Position numbers and translations under genes: made by a program
Shown: positions 1 to 25,122 of the stretch, in pieces
Position numbering within the stretch: position 1 is the first letter of the stretch
Layout of the letters: each line of letters begins with the position of its first letter
Source of the DNA: a bacterium
GTDB lineage: Bacteria > Patescibacteriota > Saccharimonadia > Saccharimonadales > JAGQNK01
Direction: 5' to 3'
Assembly (NCBI GenBank): GCA_029557815.1
Contig: JAKQHX010000038.1
Coordinates: 1-41,551, forward strand
DNA length: 41,551 nt
The notes under the pieces: generated by a model
Databases searched by the model: none
What the model was told of the DNA's origin: nothing
The model's input: the letters and a program-made list of their open reading frames with translations, nothing else

Positions 1-2
1 CT

Positions 3-209
3 TCCGTAAACGGACTACAAAGTCCAGATTTGTATGTCGATGGTCCAATCCATGCGCTTCAACAAGAACTCGAGGAGGGCGAACTCCGAGATGAGCTGGC
101 TTTTATCACAGAACTGCCTGAAGGGCGTGGCTGCTGGCATATTAGTGCCAACCCGCATCTAGCGGACGATAGTATTGGCCGGGATATATTTTGGCCAGAA
201 TCGGTATAA
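3..209 (+). CDS. C-terminal end of an unknown protein (partial)
   Basis: An open frame enters from the left edge and runs 68 codons to a TAA at 207-209. The visible part is acidic (a run LQQELEEGELRDEL) and ends in GRDIFWPESV. It has no membrane segment or motif I recognise. The other two forward frames hit stops early, so this frame is the likely coding one, and it ends 52 bases before leuS. Function unknown. Confidence 0.55.
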   Translation, partial: SVNGLQSPDLYVDGPIHALQQELEEGELRDELAFITELPEGRGCWHISANPHLADDSIGRDIFWPESV

Positions 210-3581: not shown

Positions 3582-3956
3582 TTACGACCCTTGATTGAGC
3601 TCGCTTAAGCAGACTTCTATGTCTGCATAAATAGATTCAGGTTGGATAAGTCGGTCACTCTTTGGATCTGTCTGAAGTTCTACAGGGTGTCCTACTCTTC
3701 CCTCGACGCACAACTCGAGCGCATCAATACGTTTCTGCTGGGCATCATCAAGTCTGTCCAGCCCAACCAGTGCACTCACTACAGCTACGGGTGCAAGTAC
3801 GGCTGCAATACGGCGTTTCCCGTAGGCTCTTGCTTCCTCGTCGCTTACCTCCCGGCCTAAGGCTCTTTCTGTTCCCAGGCGCCCTATAGTTGTCGTAAGC
3901 CGTGAAAACAGGCCTGTTTCCCGAGTTAAACCAGTAGTATCTTCGTACCTCTTCAT
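3582..3956 (-). CDS. Hypothetical protein with one membrane segment
   Basis: A 124-residue protein of unknown function. A basic, helix-prone N-terminal half is followed by one likely membrane span near residues 50-68 (IAAVLAPVAVVSALVGL), then an acidic soluble tail. The start is fixed by an almost ideal promoter: TTGACA, 17 bases, TATAAT, then 7 bases to the ATG, implying a leaderless transcript. It is the first gene of a two-gene minus-strand unit with 3246-3560. Confidence 0.65.
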   Translation of the reverse strand: MKRYEDTTGLTRETGLFSRLTTTIGRLGTERALGREVSDEEARAYGKRRIAAVLAPVAVVSALVGLDRLDDAQQKRIDALELCVEGRVGHPVELQTDPKSDRLIQPESIYADIEVCLSELNQGS

Positions 3957-18258: not shown

Positions 18259-20013
18259 TTATTCTGATTTGAAAACTTTCGGTATGATGACCGTAAACGT
18301 AGTGCCTTTGTCCTTGACTGACAGGACGTCTATTTTGCCGTGGTGCATCTCTACGAGTTGTTGGCTCAGGTATAGGCCTATACCGCTACCGCTGGTTTGC
18401 CGCGAAAGCTCGTTAGGAATGCGTGAAAAACGTTGAAACAGAAGAGGGATATCGTCGGCGTCGATACCTACGCCCCTATCTCTGACCAAAATACGCACGT
18501 CATCTTTGGTAGACGTTAACTTTATATTTACGGTGGTTCCTTCGTACGAGTACTTTAAGGCGTTACTGATGAGGTTTTCCAGGGCCATCCTGAGGCCATG
18601 CTCATCAGCTTCTATGTAGATATGCTTGAGGGGCATCTGGAGCCGGATTTTTTGACGGCTCTTTTTTGCCGTAACTGACAATTCTTGTGTAAGTTCACGG
18701 AGCAAGGTGTTTATATCAAGCCGGCGGGGTGTGAGCACGATACCTTTGGCATCTATCTTTGCGACATACAGTATCTCATTGATGATGTGGAGCTGGCGTT
18801 CATTGCTCTCGTAAGCTTTGTCGAGCAGGGCTTTTTGCTGCGGAGACAGTTTTCCCGCAAAGCCTTCCAAAACCATTCCGACATATTGCTTGACTGAAGT
18901 TGCCGGCGTACGTAACTGGTGAGATGCCAGAGACAGCAACTCATCTTTTGCTGACTGTACTTCCGTCTGTTTGTTGTGCGCAAGCACCCTGGTTCTCGCA
19001 ATGAGCAGCGTTAGCACAAAGCCTGATAGCAACACACTGAGCATAGTTCCAGCAACCAGTGCTCCGAGTGGCCGGTCCCGGGTTGTTTCGGCGATAATAT
19101 TTGGAGAAAATCGAAAATCAAGCATCCATTCTTGGCCGAACAATTTTATTGTTTCGATATGCCTAATCGATCGCTCATCATTTAGTGAGGCAAAGTTATC
19201 CGTCTCAAACAGGAGGTTACCCGCTTCTGCCGTTCCATCGTAAATCCTCAATCCGTGATTGGCGCTTGAGTTATGTTCGAGTGCTGTGTTGAAAAACTCA
19301 TTTGCCAGAAAAGGTGCGAACACATAGCCCTGCAAGTCTCGGTCTGCTGGAGAGCGCTTTTGCTCGGCGCTATTCCTGTTCACAGGAGAGTACATCGAAA
19401 AGCCCACACCGCTAAACGGCATTTCAGTCTTGGTGTAAAGTACCTTATCGCTGATAGTAGCCTTTCCGGTCTCTTTTGCTGACTTAAGCGCAGAGCGTCG
19501 GCTCGGATGGGAGAGCATGTTGTAACCGATTCCAGGAGCATGTTCTGGGACAAAATACATCGTTATGGCAAACTCGTTGCCTTCCAGGGAAGGGTGGATT
19601 TTGCTGTCAGGAAAGCCATCAGCATGAATTTGGCGAATGAGGTCAGGTAATTCTGCCCTGGTTGCGCTCCTCATAAACCCAAGACCCTGCACGCCCGGAT
19701 AGTTGCGCTGGATGTCGAAACTTTTGATAAACTTTTCCCATTCACTCCTCGTTACTTCGTCAGAAGAAACAAACAGCCCAGAGGCTCCAAGCAGAACAAG
19801 CCTATATGATTCGAGCCTGTCCGTTATGCTGCTTTTTGTTTCGGAGACAGTACTGCTGATGGACGACTGCCGTTCGGCGTTGTAGGCCTGATCCGCGTTG
19901 CGCCAGCTCAAAAGTGTTAGACCGAGCATGGTAATGAGCACCGCGCCTGCCGGAAGTAAATGCAATAGGAAAGTATTAGAAGTCAGCTTCTTGCGCGTAT
20001 TTATGAAATACAT
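18259..20013 (-). CDS. CHASE-domain sensor histidine kinase
   Basis: A 584-residue membrane kinase. A first span lies near residues 14-36. Then comes an extracellular CHASE domain of about 250 residues (EWEKFIKSFDIQRNYPGVQGLGF, split here as EWEKFIKSFDIQ then NYPGVQGLGF) and a second span near 315-340. The HisKA helix carries the phosphorylated H365 in SHQLRTP. The ATPase part shows the N box NLISNALKYS, DRGVGID and GSGIGLYLSQQL. CHASE domains bind small extracellular ligands; the ligand is unknown here. The start at ATG 20013 is set by TATACT 8 bases upstream; a frame beginning earlier would include the promoter. Confidence 0.9.
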   Translation of the reverse strand: MYFINTRKKLTSNTFLLHLLPAGAVLITMLGLTLLSWRNADQAYNAERQSSISSTVSETKSSITDRLESYRLVLLGASGLFVSSDEVTRSEWEKFIKSFDIQRNYPGVQGLGFMRSATRAELPDLIRQIHADGFPDSKIHPSLEGNEFAITMYFVPEHAPGIGYNMLSHPSRRSALKSAKETGKATISDKVLYTKTEMPFSGVGFSMYSPVNRNSAEQKRSPADRDLQGYVFAPFLANEFFNTALEHNSSANHGLRIYDGTAEAGNLLFETDNFASLNDERSIRHIETIKLFGQEWMLDFRFSPNIIAETTRDRPLGALVAGTMLSVLLSGFVLTLLIARTRVLAHNKQTEVQSAKDELLSLASHQLRTPATSVKQYVGMVLEGFAGKLSPQQKALLDKAYESNERQLHIINEILYVAKIDAKGIVLTPRRLDINTLLRELTQELSVTAKKSRQKIRLQMPLKHIYIEADEHGLRMALENLISNALKYSYEGTTVNIKLTSTKDDVRILVRDRGVGIDADDIPLLFQRFSRIPNELSRQTSGSGIGLYLSQQLVEMHHGKIDVLSVKDKGTTFTVIIPKVFKSE

Positions 20014-21361: not shown

Positions 21362-22315
21362 ATGACACGATTTGGCTATACGCTGTACTGCGAAGGTAAC
21401 GATCCTCGGAGCCTGATAGAGCAGGCGGTTATGGCAGAGAAGGCTGGGTTTGACTTTCTTATAATTTCGGACCACTACCACCCGTGGCTGTCCGAGCAGC
21501 AACATGCTGCTTTTGCATGGTCAGTGCTCGGCGCTGTGGCACAGGCAACGGAGAGGATAGAACTCGCGACGATGGTAACTTGTCCGATCATACGGTATCA
21601 TCCGGCCATCGTGGCGCAAATGGCGGCAACTGTCGGTGTCATAAGCGGCGGACGCTTTACACTTGGGCTTGGCGCAGGCGAACGGTTGAATGAGCATGTT
21701 GTTGGCATGGGTTGGCCGGCTGTTCGTGTGCGACACATGATGCTGCGCGAAGCGATTGATATAATCCAGGCGCTTTGGAGTGGCCAGTACGTTTCACATT
21801 ATGGAGATTTCTTTACCGTAGAAGATGCACGCATCTTTGATTTGCCAGATGATCCGATAGAAATATTTGTAGCGGCGAGCGGGAAGGTCTCTGCGAAACT
21901 AGCCGCCGAAAAAGCTGATGGGCTTTGCACTTCTGACCCAGAAAAGCAGATAGTCAGTGCATACTTGCAAAGCGGCGGGAATAAAGGCTCTGTATGGTCA
22001 CAGGTCGTCTTGGCGTGGGGTAAGTCCAAGGAAAAGGCCGCAAAAGAACTGCATAGCAACTTCCGGTTTTCTGCTGGTGGCTGGAAGGTGCAAGCTGAGC
22101 TGCCGAATCCCGTGAACTTTGATGCAGCTACAAAAACGATTACGCCCGAAGACATGAAGGCAGACGCAGGCCCTGATGCGCAGCTACATGTTAAGAAAGC
22201 GAAGCACTACCTTGAGGCAGGTGTCAACAATCTGGCTGTGGCGTATCCCGGCAAGGACCATGCGGGGTTCATGAAATTTTGGCAAAAGGAACTGAAGCCG
22301 GCACTGCTCCCGTAA
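21362..22315 (+). CDS. LLM-class (F420-dependent type) oxidoreductase
   Basis: A 317-residue TIM-barrel protein of the luciferase-like monooxygenase family, closest in pattern to the F420-dependent glucose-6-phosphate-dehydrogenase-like group. Diagnostic stretches are AEKAGFDFLIISDHYHPW, IELATMVTCPIIRYHPA and SGGRFTLGLGAGERLNEHV. The end (AKHYLEAGVNNLAV) also fits. Use of coenzyme F420 rather than FMN is inferred from family resemblance, and the substrate is unknown. A GGAGG lies 6 bases before the ATG. It is a lone gene; the LCP gene next to it converges. Confidence 0.82.
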   Translation: MTRFGYTLYCEGNDPRSLIEQAVMAEKAGFDFLIISDHYHPWLSEQQHAAFAWSVLGAVAQATERIELATMVTCPIIRYHPAIVAQMAATVGVISGGRFTLGLGAGERLNEHVVGMGWPAVRVRHMMLREAIDIIQALWSGQYVSHYGDFFTVEDARIFDLPDDPIEIFVAASGKVSAKLAAEKADGLCTSDPEKQIVSAYLQSGGNKGSVWSQVVLAWGKSKEKAAKELHSNFRFSAGGWKVQAELPNPVNFDAATKTITPEDMKADAGPDAQLHVKKAKHYLEAGVNNLAVAYPGKDHAGFMKFWQKELKPALLP

Positions 22316-23525: not shown

Positions 23526-24209
23526 TTAGTTCAAAATACTGACCGACCGGGCCAAGATAAGCGCGATAGTAAATACTGAGACCAGTGCCTGGATTCCCAT
23601 GAGGGCTTTGGCCTGTGAAGTGATTGGCTTGCTGTCGGCCGGCGCAAAGTTGATTGCGTTGGTGACAGACAGGTACAGGTAGTCAATAAAAGTCGGTTGC
23701 CAGTCAGGAAACTCGTTAGGCATATCTTGTTGCGTAAACTGGAAGTCTTTATGATGGACGGACCATTTCCTGCCGGTTAAACCCGGACTGTCGATTTCCC
23801 AATACCACAGGGCAAACACGATGATGTTCGTCAGGAAAATCGCAAGTGCTGACACAATCAGTTCACGCCCCGACAATACTTGGCCTTCAGTCAGAAGAAG
23901 CCGGATAACCAAGAAAAAGGAGTCGACGTTGGCCAGGGAAATGATACCGAGCAGTACGATTGACAATGTTCGGTATAAGGAGCTCGGACGAAGGTGACGA
24001 GTGCTTGCATTGAGCCCGATGATAACGAGCAAGGCTACTTCGGTCATGATGATAAAGCCATGGGGGCCATACGACAGTTCCGGGCTTAGTTTCCATGATG
24101 CGATCTGCAAAAGTATGGCAAAAATCAAGGCTCCCTGGGCAAACCAGAGCTCAGCGCGGCTTATCGGATGAACCTTCATACTTCCAAGCATACTATACTT
24201 TTTGGCCAT
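23526..24209 (-). CDS. Polytopic membrane protein, DUF1345-like
   Basis: A 227-residue protein with about five to six spans. The last two spans flank a loop (FIDYLYLSVTNAINFAPADS) resembling the DUF1345 / two-helix channel-like pattern, in which a polar loop precedes the final helix. That resemblance is weak, so the transport role is only a guess. I chose the ATG at 24209 (MAKKYSML) with a TAGGA site; the frame extends further upstream into the divergent regulatory region. It leads the LCP gene in an operon. Confidence 0.65.
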   Translation of the reverse strand: MAKKYSMLGSMKVHPISRAELWFAQGALIFAILLQIASWKLSPELSYGPHGFIIMTEVALLVIIGLNASTRHLRPSSLYRTLSIVLLGIISLANVDSFFLVIRLLLTEGQVLSGRELIVSALAIFLTNIIVFALWYWEIDSPGLTGRKWSVHHKDFQFTQQDMPNEFPDWQPTFIDYLYLSVTNAINFAPADSKPITSQAKALMGIQALVSVFTIALILARSVSILN

Positions 24210-24244
24210 GGTCCTACGTTCTGGACAAAACGCAAGATATCTTA

Positions 24245-24273
24245 TTGACGAAAAGTAGATAACAACATAACAT
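24245..24273 (+). promoter_or_regulatory. Leaderless promoter of the ArsR/SRPBCC operon
   Basis: TTGACG (24245-24250), a 17-base spacer and TAACAT (24268-24273). The ATG at 24282 is 8 bases past the -10 box, so the mRNA begins at or next to the start codon. Confidence 0.68.
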
Positions 24274-24291
24274 TCAACCACATGGTTGAAT
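24272..24291. promoter_or_regulatory. Perfect palindrome over the start codon, likely ArsR-type operator
   Basis: ATTCAACCA, CA, TGGTTGAAT: two 9-base arms that match perfectly. It overlaps the end of the -10 box, the predicted transcription start and the ATG of the ArsR-family gene. A 9-2-9 symmetric site at this place fits autorepression by the dimeric regulator encoded right there. Confidence 0.62.
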
Positions 24292-24635
24292 ACGTTTCTG
24301 ACATAGATTTAGTCTTCCAGTCGCTTGCCGATCCTACCCGACGGGATATATTAGCGCAGGTTTCTCAGTATTCGTTATCGGTTGGCGAGATTGCTAAACA
24401 ATACGATTTGACGTTTGCCGCGGTGTCTAAGCACATACAGGTAATGGAAAGGGCGAAACTGGTTACCAAGCAGCACCGCGGGAAAAAGCGGATCGTGAGT
24501 GCGGTACCGGCCACACTTCATGGCGCATTGGATTATCTGAAACGGTACGAGATTGTGTGGAACGAACGTTTTGATTCGTTAGATAGGTATGTAAAGAATA
24601 ATCCTCGGGAGGAGAAAAGATATGGACGATACTAA
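24282..24635 (+). CDS. ArsR-family winged-helix transcription regulator
   Basis: A 117-residue small regulator. It opens VFQSLADPTRRDILAQVSQ, the typical start of the ArsR fold, and the recognition region is LTFAAVSKHIQVMERAKLVTKQ, split as LTFAAVSKHIQV and MERAKLV. No cysteine metal site is visible, so it belongs to the metal-independent group often paired with SRPBCC proteins. Its stop overlaps the next gene's start by 14 bases. The 20-base palindrome over its own start codon suggests autorepression. Confidence 0.88.
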   Translation: MVEYVSDIDLVFQSLADPTRRDILAQVSQYSLSVGEIAKQYDLTFAAVSKHIQVMERAKLVTKQHRGKKRIVSAVPATLHGALDYLKRYEIVWNERFDSLDRYVKNNPREEKRYGRY

Positions 24636-25122
24636 ATTTACCAAGGACAGGGCAACTAAATCACTGAAGATGGAGCGGGTATTTGACGCACCGCGCAGCC
24701 GCATCTGGCAGGCCTTTACGACCGACGAAGTCAACCAATGGTGGGGTCCACGAGGATGGAAAACCACCAGCAAGCACATGGATTTCACGCCTGGCGGCTA
24801 CTGGCATTATGGCATGAAGTGTGTCGATGAAAGCCAGGGTGAGTGGTTCGGGCAGGAGTCTTGGGGTAAAGCCGAGTACCTAGAAATTGATGAACCGAAC
24901 AAATTTGTCTACAAAGATTACTTTGCCGATGCTGACGGCAGGGTGAACGAAGAGATGCCTGCGACAACCACTACTATGGAGTTTATCGAAGAAGCAGGCA
25001 AGACCCGTATCATAAGCACGACCGTATTTGAGGATGAAGAAGGCTACGATAAAGTCATCGCTATGGGTGTCGAGCAGGGTTCTGCCGAGACATGGGACCG
25101 CCTATCTGAGCACCTTCAGTAA
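24622..25122 (+). CDS. SRPBCC-domain (AHSA1-like) protein
   Basis: A 166-residue START/SRPBCC-fold protein of the Aha1-C-terminal-like group. It shows MERVFDAPRSRIWQAFTTDE, QWWGPRGWKT, DFTPGGYWHYGM and the final MGVEQGSAETWDRLSEHL. Such proteins bind hydrophobic ligands in a deep cavity, but the natural ligand is not known. It has GGAGGA 8 bases before the ATG, inside the end of the ArsR gene. This ArsR-plus-SRPBCC pairing is common in bacteria and supports both calls. Confidence 0.88.
   Translation: MDDTKFTKDRATKSLKMERVFDAPRSRIWQAFTTDEVNQWWGPRGWKTTSKHMDFTPGGYWHYGMKCVDESQGEWFGQESWGKAEYLEIDEPNKFVYKDYFADADGRVNEEMPATTTTMEFIEEAGKTRIISTTVFEDEEGYDKVIAMGVEQGSAETWDRLSEHLQ

Follow-up and report, generated by a model that had tools for sequence, protein, structure and literature searches.

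A predicted operator centred on the start codon of a cysteine-free ArsR repressor that precedes an AHSA1-family gene

Genes for an ArsR regulator and a protein of the Aha1/START group (COG3832) have been described as a two-gene module, with a non-uniform distribution resembling that of toxin–antitoxin systems, several copies in some genomes, and ArsR components devoid of metal-binding motifs (PMC2701414). The START superfamily comprises lipid-binding proteins and also CalC, a protein that loses its activity in the act of disarming calicheamicin (as cited in PMC2701414). No operator for the pair is described in that paper, the main text of which contains no palindrome and mentions an operator twice, in connection with other matters. 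The ArsR autorepressor Rv2034 of Mycobacterium tuberculosis, encoded ahead of the polyketide_cyc2 gene Rv2035, was footprinted on a 20-bp dyad beside its own start codon, with the coding strand protected from −30 to +3, and its authors suspect a signal other than a metal ion (PMC3338718). Leaderless repressor genes have been reported as well. The autorepressor operon acuR–acuI–dddL of Rhodobacter sphaeroides was shown by 5'-RACE to begin without a leader; its downstream genes carry Shine-Dalgarno sequences, and acuR is translated at a lower level than they are (PMC3017554). CvkR, a small MerR-type repressor of CAST elements, is produced from a leaderless mRNA, is associated with a palindromic motif and represses cas12k and tnsB (PMC9938897). 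In Brucella, autorepression by ArsR6 is accompanied by a footprint, and the text of that article mentions neither a motif nor a palindrome (PMC8509827). The ArsR–AHSA1 module and leaderless autorepressors are, in short, already known.

The arsR gene described here lies in a 41,551-nucleotide stretch of Saccharimonadales DNA (the window; Table 1). It is directly followed by a PF08327 gene, and the locus thus presents the same gene pair as the ArsR–COG3832 module and shares its lack of a metal motif (PMC2701414). By analogy, the best experimental counterpart is Rv2034–Rv2035, although the Rv2034 operator, CCGTAAGT-N4-ACTTACGG, precedes the ATG, whereas the dyad of the window is centred on it and has different arms (PMC3338718). 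The acuR operon is similar in having a leaderless repressor gene (predicted, in our case), a Shine-Dalgarno sequence on the downstream gene and an operator over the promoter; AcuR is, however, a TetR-family protein, and its operator, TAATAGAC-N6-GTCTATTA, is described as overlapping the promoter and not as centred on the ATG (PMC3017554). Unlike the ArsR of the window, CvkR belongs to the MerR family, and no start-codon-centred dyad is described in the accessible part of its report (PMC9938897). The open-licence literature, a scope that leaves out most subscription papers, yielded no description of an ArsR operator centred on a start codon, and the literal core AACCATATGGTT occurred there in a single, unrelated taste-receptor paper.

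Table 1. Features of the arsR–AHSA1 locus (positions in the window)
Feature	Position	Strand	Basis or remark
−35 hexamer TTGACG	24245..24250	+	Promoter scan
−10 hexamer TAACAT	24268..24273	+	17-base spacer after −35; last two bases within dyad
Operator dyad ATTCAACCA-CA-TGGTTGAAT (predicted)	24272..24291	.	Axis between 24281 and 24282
ATG start codon	24282..24284	+	Inside dyad
ArsR-family repressor, 117 aa, no cysteine	24282..24635	+	Pfam, NF033788, fold
Codons 2–3, GTT GAA (Val-Glu)	24285..24290	+	Most of right half-site
Recognition helix, residues 45–57	24414..24452	+	AlphaFold; residue 46 = 24417–24419
Shine-Dalgarno GGGAGGAG of AHSA1 gene	24607..24614	+	Within arsR 3' end
AHSA1/SRPBCC (START superfamily) gene	24622..25122	+	PF08327, 76.6 bits; 14-base overlap with arsR

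We consider it very probable, from the sequence comparisons described below, that the dyad is the operator of a self-repressing, cysteine-free ArsR, a dimer of which excludes RNA polymerase from the promoter of a two-gene AHSA1/SRPBCC operon with a leaderless start. In this model, the ArsR dimer would occupy the 20-bp dyad, which overlaps the downstream edge of the −10 hexamer, the point where transcription is predicted to start and codons 1–3, and bound ArsR would keep the polymerase from the promoter. The operon would hold its own expression low until a signal frees ArsR. The transcript would begin at or beside the ATG, with arsR translated without a leader and the AHSA1 gene from its own Shine-Dalgarno sequence. 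Autorepression from a site over promoter and start codon had been proposed in a preliminary description of this DNA; the axis found in orthologues, the covarying arms and the fixed promoter register all argue for it. That description also had the bound dimer cover the first codons. As a matter of DNA geometry this holds, but a separate block of translation does not follow from it, and exclusion of RNA polymerase would be the more sensible reading.

Assignment of the regulator to the ArsR family is based on matches to Pfam HTH_20 (39.1 bits) and HTH_5 (33.7 bits), both above cut-off, and to NF033788 (62.8 bits, cut-off 55). It is not a member of the SdpR subfamily NF033789, for which it scores 62.1 bits against a curated cut-off of 100. 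None of its 117 residues is a cysteine, which leaves it without the cysteine-based metal site of the metal-sensing ArsR/SmtB proteins; the classical thiol metal site is hence absent. An AlphaFold model (pLDDT 91.5) has the winged helix-turn-helix fold of ArsR proteins and places residues 1–4 outside any helix. The nearest solved folds are 2oqg (TM 0.82) and 3f6o, ArsR-like proteins of Rhodococcus RHA1 with which the likeness drawn here is one of structure only; both are among the six solved sequences matched by the ArsR sequence.

The dyad itself, ATTCAACCACATGGTTGAAT at 24272–24291, consists of two fully complementary nine-base arms around a central CA. It had initially been taken for a perfect 20-base palindrome within a span, 24245–24291, that begins at the −35 hexamer. 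The palindrome is real, but the dyad proper starts at 24272 and its central C/A pair is unmatched, so that nine of ten pairs match. Its reported overlap with the start codon and with the last bases of the −10 box was borne out, the ATG lying inside the dyad with the axis immediately 5' of its A. No other axis in the 41.5-kb window has all nine outer pairs, and first-order Markov simulations gave a mean of 0.075 such dyads per window (maximum 1 in 40 simulations). At up to three mismatches, the sequence matches once in the window (shuffles, 0.02), with no second copy upstream of arsR; the genome search that had been suggested for the same palindrome returned likewise one match in the 933,395-base assembly. 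A ten-base palindrome, AAGATATCTT, spotted by eye only, adjoins the −35 hexamer at 24234–24243 and is unlike the operator. A terminator scan flags the dyad on the minus strand (one found; shuffles, mean 0.2), and the inverted repeat might on that account end minus-strand transcripts as an intrinsic terminator. Only three G-C pairs occur in its 10-pair stem, however, and in homologues the dyad is kept in fixed register with the ATG while the orientation of the upstream ORF changes, which makes a terminator extremely unlikely.

Is the position of the dyad a property of this single locus? ArsR homologues were gathered solely by protein similarity, with the window's own gene excluded. The 193 loci obtained were reduced to 171 by dropping 19 with weak or absent local matches and three at contig edges; at most 30 best-scoring loci were taken per search, and close relatives are therefore over-represented among the 193, while 22 of the 171 genes come from eight named genomes picked for carrying the motif. 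In each gene we took the start closest to the counterpart of the window's ATG, and counted outwards from the point just before it how many pairs (k = 2..9) were complementary, calling a dyad when at least six of the eight matched; mechanical, uncurated ATG ORFs of at least 80 aa from the same loci served as controls. A dyad lies on the exact axis in 74 of 171 homologues (72 at an ATG, two at other start codons), or 60 of 149 without the eight motif-picked genomes, compared with 5 of 1,383 control starts. Sliding the axis gives 74 genes at shift 0 against two each at −1 and +1 and a mean of 1.88 at other shifts (maximum 7, at −40).

The dyad is present in 31 of 43 genes of the Sacch set, from the window's own order, in 14/22 of the eight motif-picked genomes, 10/29 of the class of a Phyllobacterium (Alphaproteobacteria), 11/29 of the Acidobacteriota set, 6/10 of the class of a Luteibacter (Gammaproteobacteria), 1/8 of the Verrucomicrobiota set, 1/28 of the Chloroflexota set and 0/2 of the Bacillota set. 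The palindrome is thus found with orthologous genes, both in the order and overall, where its absence had been named beforehand as grounds for giving up the operator. The start-codon-centred layout is not universal, some groups, such as Chloroflexota, being largely without it. Five distant same-order homologues (L011, L026, L170, L171 and L176) have a TTAAC...GTTAA-like dyad off the start codon. The gene is patchy in the order: 24 of 60 relatives, the window's own genome included, match at E 1e-3, many of them weakly, and 43 of 392 match at E 1e-12; the one same-genus genome has no ArsR match. Plasmid relatives were found in 502 of 72,556 records at E 1e-6, and no relative was confirmed in the viral contigs scanned with the ArsR sequence.

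A search that started from the DNA led to the same family. The 18-base core TTNAACCATATGGTTNAA occurs in at least 118 stretches of genome contigs, and in at least 63 of them (63 of the 118 matches listed) an ArsR ORF begins at the central ATG. Among the matches listed, these 63 ORFs represent at least 17 named phyla, including Pseudomonadota (33), Bacillota (5), Verrucomicrobiota (3), Planctomycetota (2), Acidobacteriota (2) and Chloroflexota (2). An ArsR-like ORF lies no more than 500 bases from seven of the remaining 55 listed matches (six at E ≤2e-6, one at 0.0098). About 60 chance matches to the core are expected across the whole collection at 50% GC, and many of these 55 may be of that kind.

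The locus also has a divergent neighbour. A gene for a DUF1345-like membrane protein, below the Pfam cut-off, lies on the minus strand at 23526–24209, 72 bases from arsR, and a similar divergent neighbour occurs at L029; the site could accordingly serve this gene, or another regulator, in place of arsR. Among the 31 dyad-bearing orthologues of the order, however, the largest mechanically called ORF within 500 bases upstream lies on the same strand in 21 and is divergent in 10, with differing proteins; the axis moreover keeps a base-exact register with the arsR ATG, and changes in the operator go along with changes in the recognition helix of ArsR. A role for the dyad in the control of the neighbour rather than of arsR is, given these data, very unlikely. 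The site appears instead to travel with arsR, since the upstream ORFs of the orthologues differ in strand and identity. The DUF1345-like frame remains open as far as a GTG at 24281 that mirrors, within the dyad, the ATG of arsR.

The promoter of the window is a moderate match to consensus in both hexamers, with 9 of 12 positions matching in TTGACG-17-TAACAT, and is one of two promoter-like sites in the 301 bases scanned (shuffles, mean 0.5). Transcription typically starts some seven bases downstream of a −10 hexamer. From this spacing and the position of TAACAT, the start point is predicted at the ATG or within about two bases of it, and no Shine-Dalgarno sequence was found ahead of arsR in the window. 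The arrangement recurs among the 72 dyad genes that start with ATG. In 57 of them TTGAC begins between −38 and −34 (at −37 in 33, −36 in 14, −35 in 6, −34 in 3 and −38 in 1), in 56 the first base of TANNNT is at −14 (29 genes) or −13 (27 genes), and a Shine-Dalgarno-like tetramer starting between −16 and −6 occurs once, at −15; the same test on 97 non-dyad genes gave 30 occurrences, counted as occurrences and not as genes. The proposal that arsR is leaderless gains from this fixed distance between hexamers and ATG and from the near-constant absence of a Shine-Dalgarno sequence, both read from the DNA.

Of the window's 41 listed ATG ORFs of 100 aa or more, a further one, at 3582–3956 on the minus strand, combines TTGAC near −36 with TANNNT at −13. 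This second start of leaderless type reads TTGACA-17-TATAAT-TCACTTT-ATG, with an inverted repeat, TAACAATTTGTTA, lying between the hexamers and reaching into them; the 124-aa product has no Pfam match. A gene for a CHASE-domain histidine kinase (PF03924, HisKA, HATPase_c; 18259–20013, minus strand), in what is a small genome, has TANNNT at −14 and no Shine-Dalgarno sequence.

In 12 of the 72 dyad genes a second, similar dyad lies 38–41 bp upstream of the first, or 48 bp in one case (L186, L192, L195, L200, L207, L208, L213, L230, L235, L267, L270 and L273), and in eight of these the TTGAC of the −35 box falls inside its right arm. The second dyad is present even at L200, where the arms are quite different (AAGGCA/TGCCTT). 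A second operator some 40 bp upstream points to a possible two-site design of repression. These copies also bear on whether the dyad acts in RNA. An inverted repeat that surrounds the start codon could, given an upstream transcription start, fold into a hairpin at the 5' end of the message and hide the codon from ribosomes. The position of TANNNT nevertheless puts the likely start at or beside the ATG, which would leave the left arm untranscribed, and the second copies would lie outside such a transcript; an RNA hairpin is in our view highly improbable, and a DNA operator is the reading that we retain.

If the dyad is an operator, its two arms should be linked to each other across homologues. 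In all 171 genes, 573 of 1,026 pairs (k = 4..9) match, compared with a mean of 349.5 and a maximum of 401 when right arms are swapped between genes (2,000 swaps). For the 123 genes in which codons 2–3 do not begin with GTTGA, 315 of 738 pairs match (swaps: mean 196.7, maximum 241). The test on the 72 dyad genes alone (385 of 432; swap mean 318) is inflated by selection, for which reason the version with all 171 genes is preferred. Individual genes illustrate the linkage. Where codons 2–3 are GTAGAA the upstream arm reads TTCTAC (two of two genes), with CTTAAC it reads GTTAAG (one of two) and with GTTCAG it reads CTGAAC (two of two); GTTCAC and GTTGTG are accompanied by GTGAAC and CACAAC. Of the 29 dyad genes in which codons 2–3 are not GTTGAA, 11 have an exactly complementary six-base arm; in the others it has one or two mismatches, a limit guaranteed by the selection of at least six pairs in eight.

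Codons 2–3 encode Val-Glu in most close orthologues, and one could suppose that these residues are conserved for the sake of the protein and matched by the upstream arm through chance. Several observations speak against this. Val2 is encoded by GTT in 60 of 65 dyad genes, compared with 74 of the 446 other valine codons of these genes; for genes from outside the window's order the figures are 31 of 34 and 29 of 257, and Glu3 is GAA in 46 of 47 dyad genes as against 289 of 637 glutamate codons elsewhere. Valine is the second residue in 65 of the 72 dyad genes, as against 7 of the 97 that have fewer than six pairs. Paralogues differ at codons 2–3 (Leu-Asn, Val-His, Ala-Gln, Pro-Tyr), with the upstream arm changing in step, and the first four residues are outside the predicted helices. 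In the pattern-selected set, Val2 is forced by the search pattern, and its invariance there is no evidence. Conservation for the protein with a chance match upstream has, on this record, next to no likelihood. Because of the synonymous bias, the tie of Val2 to the dyad and the non-helical state of residues 1–4, residues 2–3 of ArsR appear to be set by the operator and not by the needs of the protein.

The regulator varies together with the site. Among the dyad genes, no alignment column is more strongly associated with operator class than residue 46, near the start of the recognition helix, which again ranks first for base +7 in the pattern-selected set. In the protein-selected set, the window included, a G at +7 goes with Ala46 in 45 of 50 genes, an A with Pro46 in 15 of 17 and a C with Thr46 in all five, and the only T goes with proline; the exceptions are five of 50 genes with G and non-alanine and two of 17 with A and non-proline. 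In the pattern-selected set (59 of the 63 ORFs among the matches listed, four short ones being dropped), G goes with alanine in 36 of 41 and A with proline in 12 of 17; the one C there is accompanied by alanine. On a tree built without the helix there are three well-supported independent contrasts, of which 2.8 on average point in the same direction, too few for significance. The association of residue 46 with base pair 7 speaks for ArsR itself being the protein that would bind the dyad, and we offer this pairing as a candidate recognition rule.

Taken by itself, the site in the window is an ordinary autoregulatory operator; it is the general, start-codon-fixed pattern across phyla for which the open-licence literature gave no description. 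We lean towards the view that a large, phylum-crossing branch of AHSA1-linked ArsR proteins carries a promoter/operator/ATG cassette of approximately 47–50 bp, with its axis fixed at the ATG and residues 2–3 of the protein dictated by it, and that operator and recognition helix codiversify between paralogues, mostly as G-Ala, A-Pro and C-Thr. If so, leaderless translation would make the cassette functional in whatever host it reached, a possible explanation for its spread, and a start-codon-centred operator may be one reason for the leaderless state of certain repressor genes. The N-terminus of a protein would here be shaped by DNA binding, not by protein function. The start codon of such an ArsR gene could mark its operator, making binding sites readable from the ten bases on either side; for arsR–AHSA1 modules, which are widespread and poorly characterised, the palindrome would become a readable code.

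The partnership with the AHSA1 gene is independent of operator layout, since arsR homologues with the dyad (65 of 72) and without it (83 of 99) are alike in mostly having an AHSA1 relative downstream. The Shine-Dalgarno sequence of the AHSA1 gene gives a mixed picture: with a rough, automatic choice of starts, it is present in 38 of the 60 operons with a dyad and in 49 of the 77 without. Could the two proteins act on the operator jointly, as a toxin–antitoxin-like pair? Makarova et al. 2009 list ArsR–COG3832 as a two-gene module of that type, yet judge antibiotic resistance its most plausible function (PMC2701414), and nothing in the present analysis points to toxicity or to a need for AHSA1 in DNA binding; we regard joint action as unlikely and repression by the ArsR dimer as the better account. 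As the START superfamily includes lipid-binding proteins and CalC, a small organic molecule or a drug-like stress would be a reasonable guess, by analogy, for the inducer. Elsewhere in the window and its incomplete assembly, the best match to CofD reaches 28.8 bits against a cut-off of 257, in a search whose control list includes E. coli, and an F420-dependent LLM oxidoreductase (TIGR03557, 432.7 bits) is encoded at 21362–22315 on the plus strand.
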